DNA of 64,000 nt from Phycisphaerae bacterium. GTDB taxonomy: Bacteria; Planctomycetota; Phycisphaerae; UBA1845; UTPLA1. The first letter of the stretch is position 1. Each line of letters begins with the position of its first letter. A program made the translations under genes and the position numbers. Positions 22,054 through 22,322 of this stretch are shown piece after piece. The stretch covers positions 434,001-498,000 of the forward strand of contig DATEMU010000015.1 of the NCBI GenBank assembly GCA_035275405.1, given 5' to 3'. Under the pieces are notes generated by a model that saw only the letters and a list, made by a program, of their open reading frames with translations, had not been told where the DNA came from and made no database searches.

Positions 22054-22148
22054 GGGAGCGTCCGGGTTCCTGGTGGGCCCCGCGGTCTTCAAAGCCGTTG
22101 AGGCGTTGCATCGCAGCGTCTGGTGGGTTCGATTCCCATCCGCTCCCG
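22054..22148 (+). tRNA. selC: Selenocysteine tRNA, anticodon TCA
   Basis: A 95-nt tRNA gene with all hallmarks of tRNA-Sec. The anticodon loop is CTTCAAA (22087-22093) with anticodon TCA at 22089-22091. The D arm is long with a TGGT loop (22071-22074). The extra arm has 8 bp (GGCGTTGC/GCAGCGTC, about 22102-22120). The T loop is TTCGATT (22128-22134). The acceptor stem is GGGAGCG/CGCTCCC and the discriminator is G148, as seryl-tRNA synthetase requires. CCA is not encoded. The eighth acceptor pair of bacterial tRNA-Sec would be T61/C140, a mismatch; the T stem may extend to 6 bp instead, keeping 13 stacked pairs. TATGAT at 22042-22047 could be its -10 element. No selA, selB or selD is in the window. 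Confidence 0.93.
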
Positions 22149-22295
22149 TCGAACGGCATGGCGGATCGCGATTTGAAGGCGGTATTCCGGCCATTATCTC
22201 ATGGCTTGATTCCGGCCGTGGCAGGATTAGAATCTCTCCGGGTCCCGTTAGAGAGCCTCCTTTCTCTACTCTCCGGCCCGAGAGGTAGGGACCCG

Positions 22296-22322
22296 GCCCC
22301 GCCGCAACGGCGGGGCTTTTGT
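22296..22322 (+). terminator. Intrinsic terminator downstream of the Sec tRNA
   Basis: A 9-bp perfect stem GCCCCGCCG/CGGCGGGGC (22296-22304 and 22308-22316) with a CAA loop is followed by TTTTGTT. It lies 148 bp after the tRNA and abuts the stop codon of the convergent gene. Confidence 0.8.

Follow-up and report, generated by a model that had tools for sequence, protein, structure and literature searches.

The tRNAs for selenocysteine (tRNA-Sec) of bacteria, the family described by the Rfam model RF01852, have an acceptor stem and a T stem whose 8+5 pairing is considered the rule in bacteria and the feature measured by SelB. An unusual 7+5 form (12 bp) has been described in bacterial tRNA-Sec of the Cloacimonetes type and in 47 others, and bulged stems are also found there (PMC5330540). 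As for the hosts, the use of selenocysteine in planctomycetes is already published: the planctomycetes P1 and P2 from Porphyra have full Sec gene sets and several redox selenoproteins (PMC4807772), and the Sargasso Sea sequences have provided SelD, Prx-like, thioredoxin, deiodinase-like and AhpD/CMD selenoproteins, with UXXC or CXXU motifs (PMC1088965).

The window, that is, the whole 64-kb stretch of DNA analysed, lies within contig 15 of a host genome of 5.29 Mb (19 contigs, 96% complete). It carries a tRNA-Sec gene which, judging by the sequence and with a probability of about 95%, would be the single working selC of a planctomycete that has a complete bacterial selenocysteine system, and at least seven selenoprotein genes elsewhere in its genome.

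The tRNA-Sec gene

ARAGORN finds a single tRNA within the window, a tRNA-Sec on the forward strand (22054-22148), and the RF01852 model scores the same gene at 71.0 bits against a cut-off of 47 (E 1.6e-12), this being its only match over the cut-off in a search of the entire host genome. The minimum-energy fold reaches -48.5 kcal/mol, compared with a mean of -36.6 for the shuffled sequences (z -3.66), none of which equals it, and it is drawn with an acceptor stem of 7 bp, a T stem of 6 bp and an extra arm of 9 bp. A previous sequence-only reading of this DNA had described an anticodon TCA, a long D arm with a TGGT loop, a G discriminator and an extra arm of 8 bp, and all of these are in place except for the length of the extra arm, which is one pair greater in the fold.

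The anticodon TCA, which decodes UGA, occupies 22089-22091. The D arm (22064-22080) is formed by GGGU/GCCC, a bulged U at 22068 and CC/GG, which gives a stem of 6 bp with a single bulged base, closed by a loop of 4 nt, UGGU (22071-22074); this layout is also that of the tRNA-Sec of the host's order. The discriminator G73 corresponds to G22148, directly followed by TCGA, so the gene does not encode the CCA. The 5′ strand of the acceptor stem, GGGAGCG (22054-22060), forms seven pairs with CGCTCCC (22141-22147); then comes U8 (22061), and after it a linker, CC, leading to the D stem. On the other side, 22122-22140 contains G49 (22122), the T arm GUGGG-UUCGAUU-CCCAU and C66 (22140). Position 8 therefore faces C66, a mismatch in the eighth layer, and the alternative partner of C66 is G49, by which the pairing would become 7+6; both possibilities had been pointed out in the sequence-only reading, where the mismatch is numbered T61/C140, and the mismatch is real, while the 7+6 form is the one drawn by the fold. 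With either of them, the helix formed by the acceptor and T arms retains its 13 layers.

The eighth layer across the phylum

The comparison includes 111 distinct tRNA-Sec genes parsed from genomes of the host's order and of Planctomycetota, a sample drawn by score that leans to some families, so that the figures that follow are raw counts, uncorrected for relatedness. Each of layers 1-7 is paired in 109-111 of these genes, whereas layer 8 is paired in 28 and mismatched in 83, with U.C in 41, G.G in 37 and other combinations in five. Position 49 is a G in all 111, and C66 is present in every gene of the U.C type. As a separate observation, the genes of the G8.G66 type encode the CCA, and those of the U8.C66 types do not.

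Genome contigs were also scanned for the 3′ half of the window's tRNA-Sec, a query that leaves base 8 outside. The records recovered are mostly planctomycete, with U8 in 90 and A8 in 8; G8 appears in six, one of them labelled as planctomycete and the rest from Zixibacteria, Armatimonadetes and Bacillales, and also in four Thermoflexus records. In the non-planctomycete records that share this same 3′ half, layer 8 is paired. Two curiosities of the relatives can be noted here: one carries, besides its tRNA-Sec, a further copy that is damaged and spans the 3′ two thirds of the gene, and in the chromosome of another a second tRNA-Sec match adjoins a stretch of N.

From these comparisons, the mismatch of layer 8 is to be seen as a trait of the lineage and the phylum, not as decay, because 83 of the 111 genes have it and because the same 3′ half is paired in other phyla. 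No mention of this form was found in the literature searched, though it may have been reported before. Of the 114 genomes of the order, 88 have a match over the RF01852 cut-off, as do 275 of the 392 drawn from the phylum, counts that may include a few other long-arm tRNAs near the cut-off and that fit a widespread use of selenocysteine.

We incline, with somewhat more confidence than doubt, to the view that in Planctomycetota the 8:66 hinge is usually non-Watson-Crick, of two kinds (U.C and G.G), that 8+5 pairing would not be required there, and that what is recognised would be the length of the helix rather than its eighth pair. In the tRNA-Sec of the window, the 13 stacked layers of the acceptor and T arms would be kept with U8.C66 as the eighth, and the option of C66 with G49 would give a 7+6 arrangement of equal overall length. 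Since the mismatch is usual in the phylum, the planctomycete SelA and SelB would have to tolerate it, and its presence throughout the phylum bears on the way in which these two proteins recognise tRNA-Sec.

A refinement, more than a rival, of this reading is that the molecule is a true 7+6 tRNA, in which the hinge has been shifted by the pair G49-C66 and the shifted form has been selected as the functional one in the order. The minimum-energy fold, the invariance of G49 and the constancy of C66 in the U.C genes all speak in its favor; however, G49 is invariant even where C66 is missing, so that there is no covariation between the two, and the 7+6 arrangement is impossible for the G8.G66 type (37 of 111), whereas a tolerated mismatch accounts for the U.C and the G.G types alike. 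A selected 7+6 form is thus possible but unlikely, and the mismatch tolerated within a helix of 13 layers would be the simpler reading.

Partner genes and selenoproteins

The three genes that define the bacterial selenocysteine trait, selA, selB and selD, are all in the host genome and over their curated cut-offs. In the profile search, selA reaches 522.9 bits (cut-off 267.9) and selB 326.3 bits summed over its pieces (cut-off 242.3), both on contig 12, where selB is adjacent to selA and immediately before it; selD, on contig 8 (89261-90184), reaches 370.8 bits (cut-off 125). The frames of selA and selB are open, and that of selD contains exactly one TGA, found at the catalytic position within SCAGUAGK, where the U takes the place of Cys17 in the alignment to E. 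coli SelD.

It had been remarked beforehand that none of these genes is in the window, and this is so: they are on other contigs. The remark carries no weight as to function. The selC gene is often unlinked to the other sel genes, as in E. coli, and here selBA, selD and the tRNA-Sec are distributed over three contigs, so the absence of neighbours is uninformative.

A single in-frame TGA at a redox or catalytic position is found in at least seven genes, SelD and six others, a lower bound given that the survey went family by family, with two redox families and few families overall, and that the codons were read from one assembly. The six are: a peroxiredoxin-like (Prx-like) protein, with the TGA in FYRGFWUTLC; two TlpA/thioredoxin-like proteins, in WAVGUGPC and WATWUAPC; a deiodinase-like protein (contig 5:20187-20684), in GSFTUPPF; and two CMD/AhpD-like proteins, in CRYU and CLYU. 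The deiodinase-like protein matches Pfam T4_deiodinase (PF00837, E 4e-35), a family found in none of 14 control genomes, and its U is aligned at the catalytic site of the solved deiodinases. The CMD/AhpD-like proteins found in the genome are these two, and both have CxxU with the in-frame TGA. Among the molybdopterin oxidoreductases (formate dehydrogenase, FmdB type) there are three matches in the genome, with no TGA inside the match.

UGA is also a stop codon in this organism, as TGA ends 20 of the 44 long non-overlapping ORFs of the window, and beside the TGAs at redox sites this gives UGA both meanings. Downstream of the UGAs the Rfam search gave nothing credible, and the simple folds made there would offer putative SECIS hairpins at most. 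Within the window itself, a search for in-frame TGAs flanked before and after by coding-like frames yielded 16 places, the best of which (TGA 15730) proved to be a complete DUF4287/DUF5655 protein followed by a second gene in the same frame, and the other 15, mostly with the look of antisense shadows, have no CxxU/UxxC motif. The earlier impression that no protein of the window is a selenoprotein is in this way borne out, and the expectation that some of the organism's UGA codons specify selenocysteine gains support from selA, selB and selD and from the seven TGA-bearing redox genes.

Some molecules resemble tRNA-Sec without serving selenocysteine (PMC7609411), and the gene of the window could in principle be one of them, a general suppressor of UGA or an allo-tRNA, like selC*, that inserts Ser or Cys. 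This is very improbable, since G73, the helix of 13 layers, the D stem of 6 bp with its loop of 4 nt and the anticodon TCA fit tRNA-Sec, the full set of selA, selB and selD together with single UGAs at redox sites fits selenocysteine, and UGA ends many genes. That the gene is a relic, a pseudogene decaying after the loss of selenocysteine use, with U8.C66 as early damage, is scarcely conceivable and was rejected: the mismatch and the bulge of the D stem do deviate from the textbook 8+5 form, but layers 1-7 are fully paired, the U.C mismatch is common to 41 of 111 distinct planctomycete genes, and neither a low score with the Sec model nor a lack of sel genes, the two signs by which a relic was to be known, is found, while the partner genes and the selenoproteins contradict it.

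If we return to the working selC, the established bacterial pathway would operate here as follows: (i) SerRS would charge the tRNA-Sec with serine; (ii) SelD, encoded on contig 8, would make selenophosphate; (iii) SelA, from contig 12, would use it to turn the seryl-tRNA into the selenocysteyl form; and (iv) SelB, from the same contig, would bring the charged tRNA to particular UGA codons, in whose decoding a SECIS hairpin located after the UGA would take part. In other words, this uncultured planctomycete appears to use selenocysteine and to possess a deiodinase-like selenoprotein, and its SelD would itself need selenocysteine.

A candidate family of small RNAs downstream of the gene

At 91 bases after the tRNA-Sec, on the same strand, there is a structured small RNA (22239-22320), preceded by a promoter-like site and ended by a terminator that both belong to it. 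The promoter-like site (22206-22233) consists of TTGATT (22206-22211) and TAGAAT (22228-22233), separated by 16 nt; a site of this kind, scoring at least 8/12, lies just upstream of 23 of 28 copies, compared with 13% in shuffles. The core (22237-22298) is a three-way junction, supported by the copies, the covariation and the model matches, with a closing stem (22238-22246/22288-22296) and two hairpins, AGAGAG-CCUCCU-UUCUCU and then CUCUC-CGGCCC-GAGAG, and it is followed by the intrinsic terminator CCCCGCCGCAACGGCGGGGCTTTT (22297-22320); 21 of 28 copies have a terminator.

The host genome contains four close copies, that of the window included, and a fifth, shortened one, on four contigs, and a comparison of the first four shows both strands of the closing stem altered with the pairing kept. 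A model built from the four finds 30 copies; within the host's family 12 of 17 genomes have them, and a neighbouring family has them in a single genome, whose copy matches one from the host's family exactly and may stem from transfer or contamination. This model has no match in the rest of the 114 genomes of the order, and a second model has none outside the host genome among 392 genomes of the phylum, a sample without other members of the family. The covariation is strong: over 29 distinct rows, 78 cells are changed on both sides, where shuffles give 26 and slid controls 9-21. Across the family the second hairpin, CUCUCCGGCCCGAGAG, hardly varies, and the loop of the first is pyrimidine, CCUCCU in the host genome and CCUCCU or CUUCCUUUCC across the family.

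A link with the tRNA-Sec was considered and discarded, as the small RNA is not beside that gene in the relatives and is dispersed in the host genome. Rfam has no match over the cut-off for it. From the sequences compared, we regard it as unlisted and probably trans-acting, a multicopy family nearly confined to the host's family, and it stands out as a clear candidate new RNA family. The CCUCCU loop is similar to the anti-Shine-Dalgarno end of the 16S rRNA, and the small RNA may bind ribosome-binding sites.

Comparison with known systems

The TGA-bearing genes of the host are of the same kinds as the selenoprotein families of the Sargasso Sea (PMC1088965), with the same UXXC/CXXU motifs, and would be new members of these, with no difference of kind. 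With the planctomycetes P1 and P2 (PMC4807772) the host has in common the full Sec gene set, unlinked in P1, and several redox selenoproteins; it belongs to a different lineage of the phylum. The 7+5 type (PMC5330540) shares with the window's tRNA-Sec the acceptor stem of seven pairs and the presence of bulges in stems; in contrast, the gene of the window keeps 13 layers, in which the eighth is mismatched and no residue is missing. With respect to the bacterial 8+5 tRNA-Sec of RF01852, it retains the TCA anticodon, the long extra arm, the D stem of 6 bp with its loop of 4 nt, G73 and the helix of 13 layers, and it differs in the U.C of layer 8 (7 + mismatch + 5, or 7+6), in the bulge of the D stem and in the unencoded CCA. 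In summary, this is a fairly ordinary selenocysteine system, served by a known kind of tRNA with one weak joint that is common in its phylum.
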